A program made the position numbers and the translations under genes. The notes below the pieces were generated by a model, which did not search any database, was not told the DNA's origin, and was given only the letters and a program-made list of their open reading frames with translations. From Steroidobacteraceae bacterium (GTDB lineage: Bacteria; Pseudomonadota; Gammaproteobacteria; Steroidobacterales; Steroidobacteraceae), in contig JADGHX010000013.1 of NCBI GenBank assembly GCA_019683695.1, positions 1 to 46,509 of the forward strand: a stretch of DNA of 46,509 bases, written 5' to 3'. The stretch's first letter is position 1. The number at the start of each line of letters is the position of its first letter. Positions 18,171 to 28,741 of this stretch are shown here, in pieces.

Positions 18171-19556
18171 TCACTCGCCGACGACCTTGCCGCCCGCAAT
18201 GCGCTGATCGCCCTTGAGCCCGATCGCGAACTTCGCGAGATATGCGTTCGGCTTGCGTCCGTCGTATTCCACGCCGTCGATGAAATCCTTCGTCGGCGGA
18301 CGATAGCCGTCGCTCTCCCACGGGAAGTCCGCCTTCTGCGCCTTGCCCTCGGCGACGAGGCGTCTCGCCGCCTCGAGATAGATGTCCGGGCGGTACACGG
18401 ATCGGGCGACCTGGTGATACCACTCGTCCGGCTTGCCTTCCGGAATCTGGCCCCAGCGCCGCATCTGCGTGAGGTACCACACCGCATCGCTGTAGTACGG
18501 GTAGGTGGCAAAGTGCCGGAAGAACACATTGAAGTCCGGCACGGGCCGCTTCTCGCCCGGCGTGTATTCGAATGTGCCGGTCATGCTGTTCGCGATCACT
18601 CGGTAGTCGGCACCCACGTACTCCGGCTGCGAGAGAATCCGGGCCGCCTCCTTGCGGTTCGCGCCGTTGTTCGCGTCGAGCCACATGCAGGCGCGGATCA
18701 GCGCCTTGATGAGTGCGAGATGCGTGTTCGGGTGCTTCGCCGCCCACGCTCGTGTCACGCCGAACACCTTCTCCGGATTGTTCTTCCAGATCTCGTAGTC
18801 CGTGATGAACGGCACGCCCACGCCCTTCGCGATGGCCTGCTGGTTCCAGGGCTCGCCTACGAAGTAACCGTGGATGGTTCCCGCTTCCAGCGTCGCTGGC
18901 ATCTGCGGAGGTGGCGTGACGGAGAGCAGCACCTCGGCCTGAATCTGACCGGATACATCGTTCGGTGCGTAGAACCCTGGATGGATGCCGCCCGCCGCCA
19001 GCCAATAGCGCAACTCGAAGTTGTGCGTGGAAACGGGAAACACCATCGCCATGCGGAACGGCCGCCCTTCCGCGCGAAACTTCTGCAGCACCGGCTTCAA
19101 TGCATCCGCGCGGATCGGGCGCTGCGGCCTGCCCTGTGCATCCGTCGGCACGCCGCCTTTCATCAGCGCCCACACTTCGTTGGAGACGGTGCCGGCGTTG
19201 CCGTTGAGGTCCATGCTGAACGCGGTAATCACGTCCGCCTTCGTGCCGAACCCGATCGTCGCGCCGAGCGGCTGGCCCGCGAGCATGTGCGCGCCATCCA
19301 GCTCGCCCGTGATCAACCGGTCCAGAACCACCTTCCAGTTGGCTTGCGGTTCGAGCGTGACGTAGAGGCCTTCGTCTTCGAAGTACCCCTTCTCGTACGC
19401 GATGGCGAGCGGCGCCATGTCGGTGAGCTTGATGAAGCCGAGTTTGACCTCATCCTTTTCGAGCTTCACCGACGCGGCATGCGCGGCTGCGCCAATGAGA
19501 GCACTCGCGGCGAGTGCGATGAATGATGCGAACCGGATGCATCGTCCCGTAGCCAT
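18171..19556 (-). CDS. nrtA: nitrate/nitrite ABC transporter substrate-binding protein (NrtA/NasF)
   Basis: A 461-residue periplasmic protein of the CmpA/NrtA family. A signal peptide occupies about the first 30 residues (hydrophobic [15 protein letters not shown], cleavage after AHA). The mature part opens with [21 protein letters not shown] and contains [26 protein letters not shown] and GYFVGEPWN, all family hallmarks of oxyanion binding. ATG 19556 is preferred; an upstream start at 19664 would lie inside the leader terminator and would read through it. It is the first gene of nrtA-nrtB-nrtC/D-porin. The operon is preceded by a sigma-54 promoter and an attenuator leader. Confidence 0.95.
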
Positions 19557-19608
19557 GCGTCTCACGTCGACTCCGTTTTGCCGGTGAACCCGCGCGCACC
19601 TTCCGGAC

Positions 19609-19662
19609 AAAAAAAGCCGCCGGCCCCGCATGCGCGCGAAGCGGCGCATGGGAGTCGGCGGC
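19609..19662 (-). terminator. intrinsic terminator (attenuator) in the nrtA leader
   Basis: The transcript forms a long hairpin: a GCCGCCG/CGGCGGC base (19656-19662 with 19616-19622), then CTCC/GGGG and CATGCGC/GCGCATG around a short loop. It is followed at once by seven U (19615-19609). It lies 53 bases before the nrtA start codon, so the default outcome is termination before nrtA. The 5' arm is shared with the candidate second antiterminator hairpin (19657-19668), so both cannot form together. Confidence 0.85.
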
Positions 19663-19697
19663 ATTGCCCGGAAAGGCCCGCTGCTGGGCCTTGTTCA
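19657..19697 (-). promoter_or_regulatory. NasT (ANTAR) target region in the nrtA leader RNA
   Basis: The predicted transcript starts near 19697. Six nucleotides in it forms a perfect hairpin with arms AAGGCCC and GGGCCTT (19692-19673) and hexaloop AGCAGC. Four nucleotides later GGC-AATGCC-GCC (19668-19657) can form a second small hexaloop hairpin, with A at loop position 1 and G at position 4, that takes up the terminator's 5' arm. Two tandem hexaloop hairpins, the second excluding a terminator, is the known ANTAR antiterminator layout. The first loop has A at position 4 rather than G. The nirB leader repeats the arrangement. Confidence 0.7.
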
Positions 19698-19707
19698 CCT
19701 GCCATGC

Positions 19708-19723
19708 TGCAACCGTCATGCCA
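19708..19723 (-). promoter_or_regulatory. sigma-54 promoter of the nrtA operon
   Basis: On the minus strand TGGCATGACGGTTGCA matches the sigma-54 consensus TGGCACG-N4-TTGCW with one mismatch, and the GG and GC doublets are the required 12 bp apart. It predicts a start near 19697, about 141 nt before nrtA and just ahead of the leader hairpins. Confidence 0.8.
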
Positions 19724-19894: not shown

Positions 19895-21046
19895 TCAGGA
19901 CAGCGGCCGGGCCGGATCGAACACCGCTTCGTCGAAGAAGCGCTCGGGCTTCACGTCCTCAGCAGGCAACGCGACCCCCAGTGAACGCAAGGCGCGCCGA
20001 TAAATATCGGGACGATACGTCCCCGCGACTGATGAGAGATGAGTCTGCTGCGGCTCGACCTGGCGCCACCGAACCATTTGCGCATAGAACCACAGCGCAT
20101 GACTCACCCACGGAAACGTTGCGTGATGGCTCGCAAGTACATAGAAGTTCTCGAGCGCAACGGGTGCCGCGCCTTTGCGCAGGGACAAGCGATTCGCAAT
20201 AGCGTCGAGCAGCAGCTCGGCGGGTGCATCCACGTATCGCGGTGCTGCCAGCAAGTGCGCAAGCTCCACATGATTGCCTGGGTCCTGACACCACACGGAC
20301 GCGTGATGAAGCGCGCGAATCAACGCGTCCATACGCGCGCCGTTTGCGTCCGCCCACGATGCCCGGCAGCCCAGCACCTTCTCGGGGCTCAATGGCCAGA
20401 TCGCGGTCGTGGGTGTGACGATCGTTCCGATGCCCGCCTGCACCGCCACGCTGTTCCACGGCTCGCCGACACAGAACCCGTCGAGCTGACCTGCGCGCAT
20501 CGAATCCGCGAGATACGGCGGAGGAATGACAACGAGGCGCACGTCGCGATCCGGGTCCACGCCGACAGCGGCAAGCCAGTAGCGCAGCTCGTAGTGATGG
20601 CAGGAAAACGGATACACCATGCCGAACGTGAGCGGTGGTGCGCCGGCGCTCGCCCGCTCGGCGACGACGCGCGCGAGCGCCTGCCCCTGCACACGTGGAT
20701 TCCCGCCCGGCGTCGCGCCGCATCGGGCCATTTGTTCCCACAGCGACGCGGACACGGTGATTGCATTCCCGCCGAGCCCCAGCGCAATGGGCGCGACGAT
20801 GGGTACCTGCAAGTGGCCCGCACCCAGCGTTGTTGCCACCGCCATCGGCCCGAGCAGATGGGCGGCGTCGAAGTGGCCCACGATGAGCCGGTCGCGGATG
20901 TTGGCCCACGATGTTTCCCGCACGAGGATGAGATCGATGCCTTCCCGCGCGGCAAAGCCCTGTTCGAGCGCGACGACAATCGGCGCGCAGTCGAGCAGGG
21001 GAATGAAGCCGATGGTGATCTTCGGGCGAGTGACGATTCTGTTCAT
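19895..21046 (-). CDS. nasS: NasS, nitrate-sensing partner of the antiterminator NasT
   Basis: A 383-residue protein related to NrtA but without a signal peptide, so it is cytosolic. It keeps the binding-fold hallmarks: [45 protein letters not shown] and GFCVGEPWNSVAV. In Azotobacter, Paracoccus and Pseudomonas, NasS binds NasT and inhibits it; nitrate or nitrite binding to NasS frees NasT to antiterminate nas transcripts. The gene overlaps nasT by 4 bp (21043-21046), which fits two proteins made for a complex. Its end lies about 200 bp from the nrtA promoter. Confidence 0.92.
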   Translation of the reverse strand: MNRIVTRPKITIGFIPLLDCAPIVVALEQGFAAREGIDLILVRETSWANIRDRLIVGHFDAAHLLGPMAVATTLGAGHLQVPIVAPIALGLGGNAITVSASLWEQMARCGATPGGNPRVQGQALARVVAERASAGAPPLTFGMVYPFSCHHYELRYWLAAVGVDPDRDVRLVVIPPPYLADSMRAGQLDGFCVGEPWNSVAVQAGIGTIVTPTTAIWPLSPEKVLGCRASWADANGARMDALIRALHHASVWCQDPGNHVELAHLLAAPRYVDAPAELLLDAIANRLSLRKGAAPVALENFYVLASHHATFPWVSHALWFYAQMVRWRQVEPQQTHLSSVAGTYRPDIYRRALRSLGVALPAEDVKPERFFDEAVFDPARPLS

Positions 21047-21630
21047 TTGAGCAGCCGCACGAGGGAAACGATGCTGCGCGCCACGTCCGCCACGCGCCGG
21101 TTGTCGTTCATCGCGGCGGTGCGCAGCAGGCCGTACGCCTCCTCCTCGGACAGGCCACGCTCCTTCATGAGAAGGCCCTTGGCCCGCTCGATGATCTTGC
21201 GTTCTTCGAGCTGCTGGTTCGCGCGCTCCAGCTCGTCGCGCAGACGGTTGAACGCGTTGAAGTGACTCACGGCCGTGTCGAGGATGGTCTTGACGCGCGC
21301 CTTCTGCAGCCCGTCCACCACATACGCACCCACACCGGATTCGACGGCGGCGCGAATCGTCTCGGTATCCGCCTGATCCACGAACATGGCGATCGGGCGG
21401 CGCACGCTGCGCGAGACCTGGAACATCTGCTCCAGCACGTCGCGGTTGGGGTTCTCCAGATCGATGAAGATCACATCCGGATCCAGATCCACGATCCGGC
21501 GCAGCAGGCCGTGCATCTCGCGCACGACGGTAATGTCGTTGAGTCCGGCTTCACGCAGCCCTTCTTCCAGAATGGCGGCGCGGGCCGCGTTCTGGTCGAC
21601 CAGCAGAATCCGAAGCGAAGGCTCACCCAT
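21043..21630 (-). CDS. nasT: NasT, ANTAR-domain transcription antiterminator
   Basis: A 195-residue protein with a receiver-like domain (about 7-122), a coiled-coil linker (about 128-145) and an ANTAR RNA-binding domain (about 145-190). The ANTAR signature is clear: ERAKGLLMKERGLSEEEAY, followed by LRTAAMNDNRRVADVARSIV. The receiver keeps an Asp in VIFIDLENP, but the acidic pocket reads VDQN, so control is expected through NasS rather than phosphorylation. The likely targets are the two hexaloop leaders in this window. The predicted transcript from its sigma-54 promoter begins only about 7 nt before the ATG, and no Shine-Dalgarno sequence is seen. Confidence 0.94.
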   Translation of the reverse strand: MGEPSLRILLVDQNAARAAILEEGLREAGLNDITVVREMHGLLRRIVDLDPDVIFIDLENPNRDVLEQMFQVSRSVRRPIAMFVDQADTETIRAAVESGVGAYVVDGLQKARVKTILDTAVSHFNAFNRLRDELERANQQLEERKIIERAKGLLMKERGLSEEEAYGLLRTAAMNDNRRVADVARSIVSLVRLLK

Positions 21631-21647: not shown

Positions 21648-21663
21648 TGCAACCCGTATGCCA
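21648..21663 (-). promoter_or_regulatory. sigma-54 promoter of nasT-nasS
   Basis: On the minus strand TGGCATACGGGTTGCA has correctly spaced GG and GC doublets and differs from the nirB promoter in only one position. A start 12 bases after the GC would be near 21637, giving a very short leader before the nasT ATG at 21630. Confidence 0.7.
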
Positions 21664-21711: not shown

Positions 21712-21728
21712 TGCACGATGTTCGTGCA
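21712..21728. promoter_or_regulatory. NtrC binding site between nasT and nirB
   Basis: TGCACGATGTTCGTGCA is a perfect dyad and an exact match to the NtrC pattern TGCAC-N7-GTGCA. It lies 107 bp upstream of the nirB -24 element and 49 bp from the nasT one, so one activator site could serve both divergent sigma-54 promoters. The ntrBC genes are not in the window. Confidence 0.7.
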
Positions 21729-21834: not shown

Positions 21835-21850
21835 TGGCATGCGGGTTGCA
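21835..21850 (+). promoter_or_regulatory. sigma-54 promoter of the nirB operon
   Basis: TGGCATGCGGGTTGCA matches TGGCACG-N4-TTGCW with one mismatch and has correct -24/-12 spacing. It predicts a start near 21861 and a leader of about 112 nt that begins just before the antiterminator hairpin. Confidence 0.8.
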
Positions 21851-21860
21851 CCCCGACTGC

Positions 21861-21903
21861 CGAAAGGCCGTTCCGAGCATTCGGGACGGCGGGCAACGCC
21901 GCC
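21861..21903 (+). promoter_or_regulatory. NasT (ANTAR) target region in the nirB leader RNA
   Basis: Six nucleotides after the predicted start a 9-bp hairpin forms, with arms GCCGTTCCG (21867-21875) and CGGGACGGC (21882-21890) and hexaloop AGCATT. One base later GGC-AACGCC-GCC (21892-21903) can form a second hexaloop hairpin that uses the terminator's 5' arm. The first loop shares AGCA with the nrtA loop. Both leaders share the block GGGCAAYGCCGCC. Confidence 0.7.
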
Positions 21904-21957
21904 ACTCGCGCCTGCACGCTCCCCGCGCTGCAAGCGACGACTGGCGGCGTTTTCGTT
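21895..21957 (+). terminator. intrinsic terminator (attenuator) in the nirB leader
   Basis: The arms AACGCCGCC (21895-21903) and GGCGGCGTT (21943-21951) are perfectly complementary and enclose a further TGCA-centred stem. The 3' arm runs into TTTTCGTTT, a moderate U-tract. It ends about 15 bases before the nirB start codon and competes with the hairpin at 21892-21903. Confidence 0.75.
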
Positions 21958-21972
21958 TGGGCGGAGCTGAAG

Positions 21973-24504
21973 ATGGATGCGCAATCGAAACTGATCGTCA
22001 TCGGCAACGGCATGGTGGGTCAGCGCTTCCTCGAGCACCTCGTGGAGAAGACGCACGGCCATTCGATCACCGTGCTCGGCGAAGAGCCCCGCGCCGCATA
22101 CGATCGCGTTCAGCTCTCCGCATTCTTTTCCGGCAAATCGGCGGATGAGCTGAGCGTGGTACCGCCTGGCTTCATGGAGCGGCACGGCATCTGCCTCCGG
22201 CTCGGTGAACGCGCGGCTGCCATCGACCGGGACCGCCGGATCGTGCGCACGTCCACCGGCGACGAGCTGCCCTATGACGTGCTCGTTCTGGCGACGGGTT
22301 CGTACCCCTTCGTGCCACCCGTGCCGGGTCGCGATCGCGCAGGCTGCTTTGTTTATCGCACCATCGAGGATCTCGAGGGCATTCGCACCGCCGCGGCCGA
22401 AAGCCGCATCGGCACGGTGATCGGCGGCGGTCTCCTGGGGCTCGAGGCGGCGAAGGCGCTCCGCGATCTGGGCCTCGAAACGCATGTGGTGGAATTCGCT
22501 CCGCGCCTGATGGCCGTGCAAGTGGATGCCGCGGGCGGAGCGCTTCTGCGCGCCAAGATCGAAGCGCTCGGCGTGCACGTGCACACGAGCGCGAATACAA
22601 AGCGCATCGGGCCTGGCGAAACGGCGCGTCATCGCCTCGAATTCGCAGACGGCGGCGTGCTGGAGACGGACGTGGTCGTGTTCTCTGCGGGCATTCGCCC
22701 GCGGGACGATCTGGCGCGCGCAGCGGGTCTTGCCGTGGGCGAGCGCGGCGGCATCGTGGTCGATGATGCCTGCCGCACATCCGATCCGGCCATCTACGCC
22801 ATCGGCGAATGCGCGCTCTGGAACGGGAAGATCTTCGGCCTCGTGGCGCCGGGCTACCAGATGGCAAGAGTGGCGGCGCAACAGCTTGCAGGACAGGCCG
22901 ACGCCGCGTTCCGCGGTGCCGACATGAGCACCAAGCTGAAGCTGCTGGGCGTGGATGTCGCCTCCCTCGGGGATGCGCACGCTTCCACGCCGGGCGCAAC
23001 GACGTATTCGTTCAGCGACGAGCGCCGGCAGATCTACAAGAAGCTCGTCGTCGATGCCGAAGGCAAGCGCCTGCTCGGCGGCATTCTCGTGGGAGATGCG
23101 TCCGATTACGGCATGTGGCTCCAGCTCATGCTCAATGGGCTCGTGCTTCCGGAGTTCCCGGAAGAGCTGCTCGTGCCGAGAGCCTCGGGTGCATCGCCGT
23201 CACTCGCGCGCGCAGAGCTTCCCGCCACAGCGCAGATCTGCCAATGCAACAACGTGACGAAAGGGACGATCTGTGCCGCCATCGACGAAGGGTGCACGAC
23301 GCTCGGGGCACTGAAGACGCGCACGAAGGCGGCGACGAGTTGCGGTGGGTGTGCGCCTTTGGTCACGCAGGTGCTGAAAGCAGAACTCGCCCGCAAGGGT
23401 GTCGCAGTCGACAACCACCTCTGCGAGCACTTTCCGTATTCGCGGCAGCAGCTGTTCCATTTCGTGCGCATCGGTGAGCTGCGCTCGTTCGAGGCCGTTC
23501 TGCGCAAACACGGTCGCGGCCGCGGATGTGACATCTGCAAGCCCGCTGTGGCGTCCATCCTGGCCTCGTGCTGGAACGAGTTTGTGCTGTCGCGGGCGCG
23601 TCAGCCTCTGCAGGATACGAACGACTACTTTCTGGCGAACATGCAGAAGGATGGCACCTACTCGGTGGTGCCGCGGATTCCGGGCGGCGAGATCACGCCC
23701 GACAAGCTCATCGCCATCGGCGAGATCGCGAAGAAGTACGGTCTGTACACGAAGATCACTGGCGGGCAGCGCATCGATCTCTTTGGCGCCCGCGTGCACG
23801 AGCTGCCGCTCATCTGGAAGGAACTGATCGCGGCAGGGTTCGAGTCCGGCCATGCGTACGGCAAGGCGATGCGCACGGTGAAGTCGTGCGTGGGATCGAC
23901 GTGGTGCCGCTATGGCGTGCAGGACAGCGTGGGTCTCGCGATTCAGCTCGAGAACCGTTATCGCGGGCTGCGTGCGCCACACAAGATCAAGCTCGCCGTC
24001 TCGGGCTGCACGCGCGAATGCGCGGAGGCGCAGGGCAAGGATGTCGGCGTCATCGCCACCGAGCGTGGCTGGAATCTCTACGTGTGCGGCAATGGCGGCA
24101 TGAAGCCGCGGCACGCCGATCTGCTCGCCACGGACCTGGATACCGAAACGCTCATCCGCTACATCGATCGCTTTCTCATGTTCTACATACGCACGGCGGA
24201 TCGTCTGCAACGCACCTCGACGTGGCGCGACAACCTCGAAGGCGGCCTCGATTACCTGAAGAAAGTCATCTGTGAGGACAGCCTCGGCATCGGCGCGGAG
24301 CTGGAAGCGGACATGGCGCGCGTGATTGCCACGTACGAGTGCGAGTGGAAGCGCGCGGTAGAGGACCCTGAAACGCTCCGGCGCTTCCGTCACTTCGTGA
24401 ACAGCGACGCACCCGACCCGGATGTGCGGTTCGTGGGCGAGCGCGGGCAGAAGCGCCCTGCCACGCGCGCCGAGCGCAAGGAACTGGTGGAGGAGGTCGG
24501 ATGA
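21973..24504 (+). CDS. nirB: NADH-dependent assimilatory nitrite reductase, large subunit
   Basis: An 843-residue cytosolic enzyme that reduces nitrite to ammonium using NADH. The N-terminal FAD/NAD domains (about 1-400) show VIGNGMVGQRFLEHL, a GGGLLGLEAAK nucleotide loop and a YAIGECALW motif. A BFD-like [2Fe-2S] domain (about 417-475) has CQC and CGGC. Siroheme/[4Fe-4S] nitrite reductase domains fill the C-terminal half, with cluster ligands in SCVGSTWC (C-x5-C) and GCTREC (C-x3-C). The length matches typical NirB. ATG 21973 follows GGAGCTGAAG. The stop overlaps the next gene (ATGA). It depends on siroheme; hemD is 9 kb to the left, but no siroheme synthase is in the window. Confidence 0.96.
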   Translation: MDAQSKLIVIGNGMVGQRFLEHLVEKTHGHSITVLGEEPRAAYDRVQLSAFFSGKSADELSVVPPGFMERHGICLRLGERAAAIDRDRRIVRTSTGDELPYDVLVLATGSYPFVPPVPGRDRAGCFVYRTIEDLEGIRTAAAESRIGTVIGGGLLGLEAAKALRDLGLETHVVEFAPRLMAVQVDAAGGALLRAKIEALGVHVHTSANTKRIGPGETARHRLEFADGGVLETDVVVFSAGIRPRDDLARAAGLAVGERGGIVVDDACRTSDPAIYAIGECALWNGKIFGLVAPGYQMARVAAQQLAGQADAAFRGADMSTKLKLLGVDVASLGDAHASTPGATTYSFSDERRQIYKKLVVDAEGKRLLGGILVGDASDYGMWLQLMLNGLVLPEFPEELLVPRASGASPSLARAELPATAQICQCNNVTKGTICAAIDEGCTTLGALKTRTKAATSCGGCAPLVTQVLKAELARKGVAVDNHLCEHFPYSRQQLFHFVRIGELRSFEAVLRKHGRGRGCDICKPAVASILASCWNEFVLSRARQPLQDTNDYFLANMQKDGTYSVVPRIPGGEITPDKLIAIGEIAKKYGLYTKITGGQRIDLFGARVHELPLIWKELIAAGFESGHAYGKAMRTVKSCVGSTWCRYGVQDSVGLAIQLENRYRGLRAPHKIKLAVSGCTRECAEAQGKDVGVIATERGWNLYVCGNGGMKPRHADLLATDLDTETLIRYIDRFLMFYIRTADRLQRTSTWRDNLEGGLDYLKKVICEDSLGIGAELEADMARVIATYECEWKRAVEDPETLRRFRHFVNSDAPDPDVRFVGERGQKRPATRAERKELVEEVG

Positions 24505-26075
24505 AGCGGTTGAACGTGAGTGAGGCATGGACGCGCGTCTGCGAGCTGGATGACATCCTCCCGGACGCGGGTGTCTGTGCTCTCGTGGCGGGCCGGCAGA
24601 TCGCGTTGTTCCGAGTGGACGATGCGGTCTACGCAATCGACAACGGGGATCCGGCGAGCGGCGCGAATGTGTTGTCGCGAGGTATCGTCGGGGACATCAA
24701 GGGTGAGCTGGTCGTCGCCTCGCCCCTCTACAAGCATCATTACGTGCTCCGGACGGGCCGCTGCCTGGAGGATTCCGAGAAGTCCGTGAACGTCTACCCC
24801 GTGCGTGTGGAAGCCGGGCAGGTGTGGGTGGACGCGAGCGCGCTGCAGCCGGCGCGCACGCCCGCGAAGCGCCGACGCTTGGTCGTGATCGGCAACGGCA
24901 TGGCCGGTATGCGCACAGTTGAAGAGCTGCTGGCGCTCGCGCCGGACGCCTACGACATCGTGGTGTTTGGCGCGGAACCGCACGGGAACTACAACCGCAT
25001 TCTGCTCTCGCCTGTGCTCGCCGGTGAGAAGCGCCCGGAAGAGATCGTGCTGCATCCACCCGAGTGGTACTCGGAACACGGCGTCACGCTGCATGCGGGT
25101 GATCCCGTGGTGCACGTCGATCGGCGCCGTCGTACGGTGAAGTCCAGCAAAGGCGTCGAGGTGAGTTACGACCGGCTGCTGTTCGCCACCGGCTCGCGCC
25201 CCGTCGTGCTGCCGATCCCCGGCACGGAGCTACGCAACGTGATCACGTTTCGAGACCTCGCGGATGTCGAAGCGATGCTCGCTGCGGCGAAGCCCGGCCG
25301 AAAGGCCGTCGTGATCGGCGGTGGTCTGCTCGGCCTGGAAGCGGCCAACGGCCTGCTGTCTCGTGGCATGAGCGTCACCGTCGTGCACAATTGCGAGACG
25401 CTGATGAACCGTCAGCTCGATGCCGCGGCCGCAGGGTTGCTGCGCGCCTCGCTCGCCAGTCGGGGCATCGAATTCCACATGCCTGCGGAAACGACGGCAC
25501 TGCTCGGCGAAGGTGCCGTCAGCGCGGTGCGCTTCGCCGATGGCGCGGAGTTGCCTGCCGATCTCGTCGTGATGGCGGTCGGCGTGCGCCCCAATATCGA
25601 TCTGGCGCGAGCGGCCGGCATTCGATGCGACCGTGGCATCCTCGTGAACGACACGCTGCAGACCTGGGATCCCGGCATCTACGCCGTTGGCGAATGCGTG
25701 CAGCACCGGAATGTGACGTTCGGGCTCGTCGCGCCCCTGTGGGAGCAGGCGCGAGTTTGCGCGATCCATCTGGCCGAGCTCGGCATGTCCCGTTACCGGG
25801 GCACCCTGCCGGCGGCGCAACTGAAGGTCACCGGCATCGAGCTGTACTCCGCCGGGGACTTCCGCGACACCGGAGACGGTGAAGACATCGTGCTGCGCGA
25901 TCCGGCGCGGCAGATCTACAAGCGCCTCGTCATTCGGGACAACAAGCTGCGTGGGGCGGTGCTCTTCGGGGATGCGAGCGCGGGGCCGTGGTACCTCGAG
26001 CTGATGACAGGTGGCCGGGACGTGACGGGCATTCGTGACGCGCTGCTCTTCGGGCCCACCTCTCCGGAATCATGA
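24501..26075 (+). CDS. nirD: NirD fused to a NirB/NasC-like FAD-NAD(P)H reductase
   Basis: A 524-residue two-part protein. Residues 1-113 are an E. coli-type NirD domain (Rieske fold without cluster ligands; ELDDILPDAGVCAL and VLSRGI blocks). After a short basic linker, residues 125-524 form a pyridine-nucleotide-disulfide-type oxidoreductase with VIGNGMAGMRTVEEL, NYNRILLSPVLAGE, VIGGGLLGLEAANGL and YAVGECVQHR. This half resembles the N-terminus of NirB and the electron-transfer subunit of Klebsiella-type nitrate reductase (NasC; NasB in Bacillus), but lacks its own BFD cluster. NasA downstream carries a BFD domain. I infer that the FAD half passes NADH electrons to NasA while the NirD half supports NirB. 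It overlaps both neighbours by 4 bp. Confidence 0.9.
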   Translation: MKRLNVSEAWTRVCELDDILPDAGVCALVAGRQIALFRVDDAVYAIDNGDPASGANVLSRGIVGDIKGELVVASPLYKHHYVLRTGRCLEDSEKSVNVYPVRVEAGQVWVDASALQPARTPAKRRRLVVIGNGMAGMRTVEELLALAPDAYDIVVFGAEPHGNYNRILLSPVLAGEKRPEEIVLHPPEWYSEHGVTLHAGDPVVHVDRRRRTVKSSKGVEVSYDRLLFATGSRPVVLPIPGTELRNVITFRDLADVEAMLAAAKPGRKAVVIGGGLLGLEAANGLLSRGMSVTVVHNCETLMNRQLDAAAAGLLRASLASRGIEFHMPAETTALLGEGAVSAVRFADGAELPADLVVMAVGVRPNIDLARAAGIRCDRGILVNDTLQTWDPGIYAVGECVQHRNVTFGLVAPLWEQARVCAIHLAELGMSRYRGTLPAAQLKVTGIELYSAGDFRDTGDGEDIVLRDPARQIYKRLVIRDNKLRGAVLFGDASAGPWYLELMTGGRDVTGIRDALLFGPTSPES

Positions 26076-28741
26076 CGCCGGCCGTCCGGACGACCTGCCC
26101 ATACTGCGGGGTCGGATGCGGCGTGCTCGCCCGGGTGCGCGAGGGCACCATCGAGATCACAGGCGATCCCTTACACCCGGCGAATGCGGGACGCTTGTGC
26201 TCCAAAGGCGCAGCGCTCGCCGAAACACTGAACACGGGTGAGCGCCTGCTGCATCCGGTCATCCGCGATCGGCGCGTGTGCTGGGACGAGGCGCTCACGG
26301 CCGTGGCGAAGGGTTTCGACCGAATCATCCGCGAGCACGGGCCCGACGCGGTGGCGTTCTACGTTTCCGGTCAGCTGCTCACCGAGGATTACTACGTTGC
26401 GAACAAGCTGATGAAAGGCTTCATCGGCTCCGCGAACATCGACACCAACTCGCGACTGTGCATGGCCTCGGCGGTCGCAGGGCACAAGCGTGCCTTCGGG
26501 GCCGACGTGGTGCCGGGTTGCTACGAAGACTTCGAACTGGCGGATCTCATCGTTCTCGTCGGCTCGAACACCGCGTGGTGTCATCCCGTGCTCTATCAGC
26601 GCATCGTCCGCGCGCGCGAGCGCCGGCCGGATATCAAGGTGGTGGTCATCGACCCACGCCGCACGCCCACGTGTGATATCGCGGATCTGCATCTTCCGGT
26701 CCGGTCCGGCACGGACGTGTGGTTGTTCTCGGGGCTGCTTGCCCATCTGTATCGCGATGGGCGAATGGATGCGCGTTTCGTCGCCGAGCACACGGTGGAT
26801 CACGAACGAGCCATTGCCGCAGCTGCGGAGTGCACCGGTGACGTCGCTGCCGTGGCGAAAGCGTGTGGTGTGGATGCCGCGCGCATCAGCGCGTTCTACT
26901 CGCTGTTCGCGCGCACGGAGCGTGTGGTCACGGCCTTTTCGCAAGGCGTGAACCAGTCGTCCGCCGGCACGGACAAGGTGAACAGCATTCTCAACTGTCA
27001 CTTGCTCACCGGCCGCGTGGGGCGCCCCGGCATGGGGCCGTTCTCCATCACCGGGCAGCCGAACGCCATGGGCGGCCGCGAGGTCGGGGGCATGGCCAAC
27101 ATGCTCGCCGCGCACATGGAGCTCGAAAACGAGCGCCACCGAGGCATCGTGCAGACGTTCTGGTCGAGTCCGCGCGTCGCGTCGCGTGCAGGCCTGAAAG
27201 CCGTGGATCTCTTCGAGGCCGTGCACGACGGCCGCATCAAGGCGGTATGGATCATTGCCACCAACCCGGTAGTCAGCCTTCCCAACGCAGATCGCGTACG
27301 CGAGGCCCTTGCTCGCTGCGAGTTTGTGGTGGTCTCCGACTGCGTCGCACGCACTGACACAATCGCCTGTGCACACGTGCGCCTTCCCGCGGCCGCCTGG
27401 AGCGAAAAGGATGGCACTGTCACCAACTCCGAGCGCCGCATTTCGCGCCAGCGCGCGTTTCTCGCGCCGCCAGGGGAGGCGCGGCCGGACTGGTGGATCA
27501 TCTGTGAAGTCGCCAAGCGAATGGGATTCGGCGATCACTTCCAGCACGAGAGCGCGCACGACATCTTCATCGAGCACGCCGCTCTGTCAGGGGTCGAGTA
27601 TGGGGGCACGCGTGCATTCGATATCAGCGGTCTCGCCGACCTCACGCGTGAGGAGTACGACTCGCTCGAGCCCGTGCAGTGGCCCATTCCTGCGGGCGGG
27701 CGCCGGGGAACCGCGCGCATCGGCGGCGACGGTCGATTCTTCTATTCGGATGGCCGCGCCCGTTTCATAGCGGTGCACCCACGTGCGCCGGTGAACCAGG
27801 CGACCGAAGACTTTCCGTTCGTGCTGAACACCGGACGCATCCGTGACCAGTGGCACACGATGACTCGCACGGGTCTCGCGCCGCGGCTCGCGGAGCACCT
27901 GCCTGAGCCCTTCGTGGACATGCACGCGCAGGACGCACTGCTCGCCGGAATCCGTGACGGCGAGATAGTGCGCGTGATCACACCATGGGGCTCGGTAGCG
28001 CTTCGCCTGCGGACCAGCGGCGAGATTGCCCGCGGCACGCTGTTCGTGCCCATTCACTGGAGTGCCACGAACGCATCGGACGCGCGTGTGGGCGCCCTTG
28101 TGAATCCTGTTGTGGACCCGATTTCCGGCGAGCCGGAGTTCAAGCACACCCCTGCACGCGTGGAGCCGTTCCGCGTCGATTGGTATGGCGTGCTCATCAC
28201 GCGTGATGCCGACATCGAGCCGGGTACAACCTGGTGGACACGCGTGCAGGGTCAGGGCTTTCACCGATACGAGCTCGCCGGGCGCGAGAACAAGGCGGGG
28301 ATGCACGCGAGGCTGCAAGCGTGGGCGCGTGAAATGCTGCGTGCCGAGCAGGCGGGCGTGGAGTATCTCGACTACGACGATGCCGCCGCCGGCATCTATC
28401 GCGCGGCCGTTGTGTCGGGAGGTCGGCTCCGCGCCTTCCTCAGCATCGCGCCCTCACCGAAACTGCCCTCGCGCGCGTGGCTCGCCAGCCTTTTCCTGAA
28501 AGACTCACTCGCCGACATCGACCGGCGCGGAATCCTGGCCGGCCGCCCGCTCGTCGCCGCAGCCGATACAGGGGCGCTGGTGTGCAGCTGCTTCCGCGTC
28601 GGCCGCATCACGATCGCGGACGCGATCGCACACCATCGCCTGAAGACACCTGCCGAAGTGGGGGCGCAACTCAAGGCCGGCACGAACTGCGGCTCGTGCG
28701 TGCCGGAGATTCGTCAGCTCCTCGCCGCCGCCGGCGCATAG
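26072..28741 (+). CDS. nasA: assimilatory nitrate reductase catalytic subunit
   Basis: An 889-residue cytosolic molybdoenzyme reducing nitrate to nitrite. The N-terminal [4Fe-4S] ligands are visible in CPYCGVGCGVL and RLCSKG. Central bis-MGD domains follow, with DTNSRLCMASAVAGHKRAFG, GSNTAWCHPVLYQR and ITGQPNAMGGREVGGMAN; the molybdopterin dinucleotide-binding domain lies after about 575. A C-terminal BFD-like [2Fe-2S] domain (about 835-885) has CSC and CGSC. This C-terminal cluster is the likely entry point for electrons from the NirD-FAD fusion. The ATG overlaps the upstream stop (26072-26075). No molybdenum-cofactor genes are in the window. The product supplies NirB's substrate in the same operon. 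Confidence 0.96.
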   Translation: MTPAVRTTCPYCGVGCGVLARVREGTIEITGDPLHPANAGRLCSKGAALAETLNTGERLLHPVIRDRRVCWDEALTAVAKGFDRIIREHGPDAVAFYVSGQLLTEDYYVANKLMKGFIGSANIDTNSRLCMASAVAGHKRAFGADVVPGCYEDFELADLIVLVGSNTAWCHPVLYQRIVRARERRPDIKVVVIDPRRTPTCDIADLHLPVRSGTDVWLFSGLLAHLYRDGRMDARFVAEHTVDHERAIAAAAECTGDVAAVAKACGVDAARISAFYSLFARTERVVTAFSQGVNQSSAGTDKVNSILNCHLLTGRVGRPGMGPFSITGQPNAMGGREVGGMANMLAAHMELENERHRGIVQTFWSSPRVASRAGLKAVDLFEAVHDGRIKAVWIIATNPVVSLPNADRVREALARCEFVVVSDCVARTDTIACAHVRLPAAAWSEKDGTVTNSERRISRQRAFLAPPGEARPDWWIICEVAKRMGFGDHFQHESAHDIFIEHAALSGVEYGGTRAFDISGLADLTREEYDSLEPVQWPIPAGGRRGTARIGGDGRFFYSDGRARFIAVHPRAPVNQATEDFPFVLNTGRIRDQWHTMTRTGLAPRLAEHLPEPFVDMHAQDALLAGIRDGEIVRVITPWGSVALRLRTSGEIARGTLFVPIHWSATNASDARVGALVNPVVDPISGEPEFKHTPARVEPFRVDWYGVLITRDADIEPGTTWWTRVQGQGFHRYELAGRENKAGMHARLQAWAREMLRAEQAGVEYLDYDDAAAGIYRAAVVSGGRLRAFLSIAPSPKLPSRAWLASLFLKDSLADIDRRGILAGRPLVAAADTGALVCSCFRVGRITIADAIAHHRLKTPAEVGAQLKAGTNCGSCVPEIRQLLAAAGA

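Follow-up and report, generated by a model that had tools for sequence, protein, structure and literature searches.

How is transcription into nrtA, the gene for the substrate-binding protein of a nitrate ABC transporter, controlled in a member of the Steroidobacteraceae, and what is to be made of a leader hairpin whose loop breaks the A1/G4 rule of ANTAR-type RNA recognition? We analysed a stretch of 46,509 nucleotides (contig JADGHX010000013.1), referred to as the window. A preliminary description of its letters had proposed an attenuator in the nrtA leader as a target of NasT, perhaps of a variant recognition class. Comparison of sequences indicates that the leader is very probably a transcription attenuator of the NasS/NasT (ANTAR) type, in which the second hairpin (P2) would be a strict half-site with A at loop position 1 and G at position 4 (A1, G4), and the first (P1) a relaxed one with A4 or G4. 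The genes and sites around it are these.

18171-19565, minus strand: nrtA, nitrate ABC transporter substrate-binding protein, start codon uncertain (Pfam NMT1_2, 2.6e-94, on the longer frame 18171-19664)
19895-21046, minus strand: nasS, nitrate sensor related to NrtA (Pfam NMT1_2, 5.6e-77)
21043-21630, minus strand: nasT, receiver-like plus ANTAR domain (Pfam ANTAR, 5.8e-21)
21648-21663, minus strand: sigma54 promoter of nasT, TGGCATACGGGTTGCA (pattern match)
21712-21728, no strand assigned: perfect palindrome TGCAC-N7-GTGCA between nasT and nirB (sole exact pattern match in the window)
21973-24504, plus strand: nirB, assimilatory nitrite reductase large subunit (TIGR02374, 1116.7 bits)

The locus holds a NasS/NasT system, a receiver-like plus ANTAR protein adjoining an NrtA-like sensor. 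nasT ends 1.35 kb upstream of the nrtA leader on the same strand, with nasS between, in line with the 1.3 kb first given. A genome search found NasT as the sole ANTAR protein in the 97.65%-complete genome. Because of this, and because NasS adjoins it, a NasS/NasT attenuator is the best reading of the leader. The sigma54 pattern matches three times in the window against 0.04 expected; the site before nasT leaves too little room ahead of the start codon to fit a P1-P2 leader. The palindrome, which we take to resemble an NtrC site, occurs no more often than by chance when two mismatches are allowed. Under nitrogen shortage transcription would begin, and nitrate would allow the polymerase past the terminator, an AND logic. 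Ntr control combined with nitrate antitermination is described for Klebsiella and Paracoccus (PMC5424462). Directly 3' of nirB, positions 24501-26075 encode a fusion of a NirD-like Rieske domain with a second NirB-like FAD/NAD(P) reductase half, and a gene at 26072-28741 after it looks nitrate reductase-like by eye.

The nrtA leader is built from the following elements.

19708-19723, minus strand: sigma54 (-24/-12) promoter of nrtA, TGGCATGACGGTTGCA (exact pattern match)
19673-19692, minus strand: P1 hairpin, 7 bp, loop AGCAGC (A1, A4) (fold; covariation in relatives)
19657-19668, minus strand: P2 mini-hairpin GGC-AATGCC-GCC (A1, G4) (sequence; stem invariant in 12 aligned leaders)
19616-19662, minus strand: intrinsic terminator stem-loop, 5' arm shared with P2 (fold)
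19609-19615, minus strand: U7 tract of the terminator, seven T (sequence)

The predicted start near 19697 lies 12 nt downstream of the last C of the sigma54 site, so that the start originally proposed fits a -24/-12 element at 19723-19708. Read on the minus strand, P1 consists of AAGGCCC (19692-19686), AGCAGC (19685-19680) and GGGCCTT (19679-19673). A 4-nt linker, TCCG, leads to P2, with GGC (19668-19666), the loop AATGCC (19665-19660) and GCC (19659-19657). The terminator pairs GCCGCCG (19662-19656) with CGGCGGC (19622-19616). Its 5' arm includes the last three bases of loop 2 and the 3' arm of P2, and P2 and the terminator are therefore mutually exclusive. The two hairpins, the terminator with seven U and the sharing of bases, all put forward in the preliminary description, are borne out by sequence and fold. 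The folding energy of the leader has z = -3.44, and an equally good fold arose in 1 of 200 shuffles.

A second leader, 2.2 kb away and absent from the preliminary description, precedes the divergent nirB (21835-21958, plus strand).

21835-21850, plus strand: sigma54 promoter of nirB, TGGCATGCGGGTTGCA; predicted start near 21861 (pattern match)
21867-21890, plus strand: P1 of the nirB leader, 9 bp, loop AGCATT (A1, A4) (sequence, scan, fold)
21892-21903, plus strand: P2 of the nirB leader, GGC-AACGCC-GCC (sequence, strict scan)
21895-21958, plus strand: terminator of the nirB leader, AACGCCGCCA...TGGCGGCGTT, tail TTTTCGTTT (sequence; whole-leader fold z = -6.48)

The terminator begins inside loop 2, the same layout as in the nrtA leader, and in both leaders P2 overlaps an intrinsic terminator as in ANTAR attenuators. 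The nrtA leader has the dual hairpin of an ANTAR-target RNA, two neighbouring stems of at least 3 bp with hexanucleotide loops. Against published linkers of 2-25 nt (PMC8164766), that of nrtA measures 4 nt and that of nirB 1 nt unless the foot of the P1 stem opens. A1 is present in both loops of both leaders (AGCAGC/AATGCC in nrtA, AGCATT/AACGCC in nirB). G4 is present in P2, but both P1 loops have A4. RNAfold pairs A1 with U6 in the nirB P1, leaving a loop of 4 nt. P1 begins 5-6 nt downstream of the predicted start in each case, and the position of the sigma54 sites excludes a hidden ordinary P1 farther upstream in both window leaders. Some Alphaproteobacteria do have such a farther-up P1, for example AACGAA about 30 nt before P2.

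A strict scan, requiring P1 of at least 5 bp with a 6-nt loop, an A1/G4 P2 and an overlapping terminator, matched only these two leaders in the window and nothing in 851,218 bases of mononucleotide shuffles (window plus 35 loci, both strands counted). A looser scan (P1 of at least 4 bp, only G4 required in loop 2) gave three additional window matches at two places and 22 matches in 1,046,662 shuffled bases; it is thus unselective, and only the strict form is informative. The preliminary description had looked to the ANTAR model of Rfam. At the gathering threshold Rfam has no match in the window; what it shows around the leader stays below threshold. Tried on two Steroidobacteraceae loci and three loci with canonical leaders, it likewise returned no ANTAR match, only an unrelated cspA match. 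The absence of a match thus stands, but it is uninformative, since canonical leaders are missed as well, and we therefore made our own model, R1, from 12 Steroidobacteraceae leaders. Over the genome of the window (G000), R1 gave six matches at E <= 1. Two were strong (nrtA 7.1e-7, nirB 2.5e-5), the next two, at 0.018 and 0.053, are also leaders on inspection, and the remaining two have no U tract. Elsewhere in G000, at C26:8163-8204 on the minus strand (L184/L188), a sigma54 site, a P1 with the A1/G4 loop AGCGAC and a terminator lie upstream of a formate/nitrite transporter gene (FNT, PF01226). C161:19076-19121 (L185/L189) combines a sigma54 site with a P1 whose loop has 7 nt, a P2 and a terminator. 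No nitrogen gene lies close downstream of the latter; a peptidase-like gene (M16 by eye) starts a few hundred bases on. EutX and Rli55 titrate EutV, and the C161 unit could be an orphan leader or a small RNA able to titrate NasT.

Among 217 Steroidobacteraceae genomes, nasT was found in 19. The sigma54 pattern occurs within 140 nt upstream of P2 in all 22 leaders of the family that were curated near the nasT genes. We aligned 12 leaders with a hexaloop P1 from 10 genomes. Five of the seven P1 pairs show changes on both sides, so a lack of stem covariance, which had been named as grounds for giving up the idea, does not apply. In this alignment 98.3% of P1 and P2 cells pair, a value reached by none of 500 shuffles and by no slid version of six. 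The P2 stem is invariant in all 12. Most leaders were collected by an A1/G4 P2, so the constancy of those two bases is partly built in. At E <= 1e-3, R1 matched 10 of the 19 genomes with nasT and 2 of the 198 without; all ten had supplied sequences to the model, which leaves the low rate in the 198 as the informative figure. Outside the family, one of 397 other genomes of a phylum sample matched at E <= 0.01 (G982), without a U tract; with its Steroidobacteraceae training set and strict filters, R1 cannot serve to show that other lineages lack A4 leaders. Taken together, the sigma54 promoter, P1 covariation, overlapping terminator, nirB twin, single ANTAR protein and adjoining NasS lend the proposed NasT-target attenuator good comparative support.

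The relatives vary around this layout. G144 and G021 carry leaders and the search found no intact NasT in either; G021 keeps a nasT fragment. In G021 (L164, L196), a leader with P1 loop GACAGC lies beside the fragment, with a HemD-like gene (PF02602) downstream. Three genomes of genus g4 (L092, L095, L096) retain a sigma54 site and a CC-AATGAY-GG hexaloop upstream of nirB; no terminator was seen there, and control of nirB may act otherwise in this genus. Genomes of this genus carry a second NasT as well, with about 40% identity. In G087 (L100 5768, L182, L197), one leader of the NasT type precedes nasT itself, and another precedes an MFS transporter gene followed by nasS, a possible autoregulation. 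G122, G114 and G073 have a similar P1-P2 pair (loop AACGAC) before an FNT gene, without a clear U tract.

The departure of the P1 loop from A1/G4, pointed out in the preliminary description, is real and recurrent in Steroidobacteraceae. A first tally used automatic lists with some overlapping or false calls, and a filter removed two nirB leaders, that of the window and that of G799. In it, 1 of 25 family calls had a hexaloop hairpin of the A1/G4 type in the 60 nt upstream of P2 (1.06 expected from shuffles), as did 12 of 20 class-level calls and 15 of 22 alphaproteobacterial ones. A second tally set 25 hand-curated family leaders against 38 automatic control calls, with the P1 loop at most 18 nt from P2. 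Position 4 was A in 13 family leaders and G in 4, with no such loop in 8; in the controls it was A in none, G in 14 and T in 2, with none in 22. Two of the 13 (G058, G025) are 4-bp registers not chosen by the fold, and their removal takes the family from 13/17 to 11/15 A4 among well-formed proximal P1 hexaloops, against 0/16 in other Gamma- and Alphaproteobacteria (Fisher test 5e-5, a description rather than a probability, as the sequences are related and a hand-curated list is set against an automatic one). Adding four FNT leaders with G4 makes 11 A4 and 8 G4 in the family (p = 5e-4). Both control T4 loops sit in hairpins between P2 and an A1/G4 hairpin farther up, and many of the 22 controls without a proximal P1 have an A1/G4 hairpin farther upstream. 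With the limit widened to 50 nt, the family counts are A 12, G 5, T 3, C 3 and none 2, and the controls G 27, A 2, T 1 and none 8; both control A4 loops lie in Labrys loci whose proximal hairpin has G4.

A usable P1 hexaloop is missing in 9 of 30 Steroidobacteraceae leaders, and 8 of these 9 keep a hairpin close before P2. Eight of the 30 have P1 loops of other size, and the nirB leader of G042 has T4 on a bulged stem. The A1/A4 hexaloop of G799_x (AACAGA) stands a long way upstream of P2, and in G046 the predicted start lies at P2, with no room for P1. The FNT gene of G120 is preceded by a 31st leader, in which the loop measures 4 nt and no sigma54 site matches on the same strand. Well-formed P1 hexaloops number 19 (14 distinct), a set that omits G042 nirB, the eight other-sized loops, G799_x and G046; all have a purine at position 1, a pyrimidine at 3 and a purine at 4. 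In five of them the first and last bases can pair and are closed by the fold (AGCATT, AGCAGT, GCTAGC, and GACAGC twice).

The A1/G4 rule, cited in the preliminary description, is right for EutV, where it has been tested (PMC3369931). According to that report, substitutions were made at each of the four loop positions, among them G4 to A in loop 1, and every one lowered induction; changes at those positions lowered binding, and both hairpins are required. In vitro selection with NasR favours A1/G4 loops, as PMC7496416 reports. In the EutV-RNA structure (PMC8934654), G4 is the sole base-specific contact, and P1 is described without the R142, K143 and K147 contacts present at P2, with the authors noting averaged occupancy of both hairpins. 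Binding of NasT to the nasA leader is reported for Paracoccus (PMC3795266). If NasT reads P1 as EutV and NasR do, A4 should weaken binding, given the EutV change and the NasR selection. Residues equivalent to EutV R142, K149, E160, Y164 and M172 are kept in all 19 Steroidobacteraceae NasT proteins, and the protein comparison revealed no NasT determinant of A4. One candidate was an A two residues before the Met plug, a position occupied by T in many alphaproteobacterial proteins; 17 of 19 in the family have the A, yet so do L027 and L034, which keep G4.

Several other explanations have to be weighed. Were the structure a plain intrinsic terminator of the nasTS operon with coincidental hairpins upstream, its place 0.2 kb downstream of nasS on the same strand would suit it. 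A sigma54 promoter, however, separates nasS from P1, P1 covaries, and the same layout recurs before nirB, whose terminator cannot end that operon because nirB is divergent and nasT, nasS and nrtA all lie on the other strand. We consider this the least probable account. The irregular loop 1 could instead point to an attenuator answering to an RNA-binding factor other than NasT, but P2 obeys the rule, nitrate assimilation genes make up both the targets and the neighbourhood, and an ordinary A1/G4 P1 occupies the same place in relatives (nirB of G087 and G144; FNT leaders), which makes such a factor very improbable.

Two further readings keep NasT and differ over loop 1. NasT may read P2 only, with P1 a placeholder hairpin near the 5' end, serving spacing, folding or RNA stability, its loop unread. 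The leaders that lack a usable hexaloop and mostly retain a hairpin near P2 argue for this, as does the P2 stem, identical in 12/12 aligned leaders; the A1/G4 of P2 says less, being a collecting criterion. An unread loop, though, would not be expected to keep its purine 1, pyrimidine 3 and purine 4 through 19 hexaloops, even related ones, and EutV requires both hairpins (PMC3369931), so that we regard a P2-only reading as possible yet doubtful. Alternatively, the NasT of this lineage would prefer A4 in P1 by a dedicated variant code, A4 leaders (nitrate uptake, nitrite reduction) differing in strength or timing from G4 leaders (nitrite transporter). The excess of A4 over the controls, in related sequences, favours such a code, and so does the split by target: A4 before nrtA and nirB and G4 before FNT in G000, and nrtA A4 and FNT G4 in G122 and G114. 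Against it, G190 pairs an A4 loop before nirB with a G4 loop in its other leader, G4 also stands before nirB in G087, G193 and G144, the G4-contacting residues of NasT are unchanged, and in genus g4 the second NasT may serve the FNT leaders. A code switched to A4 is unlikely, and less probable than an unread P1, because the single NasT found in this genome has to serve A4 and G4 leaders alike. As first worded, the variant recognition class does not hold up: the same genome has a P1 with AGCGAC, P1 in relatives carries G4 or is no hexaloop, and the residues that contact G4 in EutV are preserved in NasT. The evidence agrees better with a P1 that is read loosely than with a switched code.

The simplest account would thus be that P1 is a relaxed half-site, with a purine at position 4, and P2 the strict one. 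A more detailed version is speculative and less likely than not: P2 strictly G4, P1 any purine with A4 favoured, one NasT dimer whose chains bind unequally, and P1 position 4 setting target strength, with nrtA and nirB (A4) responding unlike FNT (G4). For the NasS/NasT attenuator itself, RNA polymerase with sigma54 would start near 19697. When nitrate is lacking, NasS would hold NasT, the terminator would form and transcription would stop at the U7 tract. Release of NasT from NasS is known from other organisms. With nitrate or nitrite, free NasT would bind P1 and P2; the bound P2 would hold the 5' arm of the terminator, and the polymerase could read on into nrtA. The divergent nirB leader would work likewise, switching uptake and nitrite reduction together.

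NasT-dependent attenuators before nas genes are already known, and so are deviating loops in Actinobacteria (PMC8164766). Among the open-access matches listed, no title or abstract treats A4 in P1 or Steroidobacteraceae NasT leaders. In Steroidobacteraceae G4 is often lost from P1 while P2 of the targets retains it and the pocket residues stay the same, and A4 and G4 leaders coexist in one genome, a natural test of whether the two half-sites differ in role. Search models that demand A1/G4 of both loops, like that of the published survey, could overlook A4 leaders.

Compared with known systems, the actinobacterial ANTAR-target RNAs also have deviating loops, with over 50% A1/G4 conservation and one point variation allowed in the search; few lie upstream of a terminator, and in the passages of PMC8164766 consulted no recurrent A4 confined to P1 appears. 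The eutP leader of Enterococcus faecalis, read by EutV, likewise has the P1-P2 motif with P2 overlapping the terminator, but there G4 is needed in both loops by published test, the targets are eut genes and control is by phosphorylation. Klebsiella oxytoca nasF is a nitrate-assimilation hairpin attenuator read by an ANTAR protein too; NasR differs in sensing nitrate itself, and its loops obey A1/G4 as given in PMC3369931. The NasT-dependent leaders of other bacteria (Paracoccus denitrificans nasA, Bradyrhizobium nosR and the canonical leaders collected here) resemble the nrtA leader in NasS/NasT, leader hairpins and terminator; in the canonical ones collected here the hairpins also stand in tandem and P2 lies within the terminator. 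Many alphaproteobacterial leaders share a P2 of the form GGC-AACGCC-GCC, whereas most class-level leaders have GAC-AAMGGC-GTC, unlike nrtA. What sets the nrtA leader apart from other NasT leaders is A4 in loop 1 and a long GC-rich P1 right behind the start.
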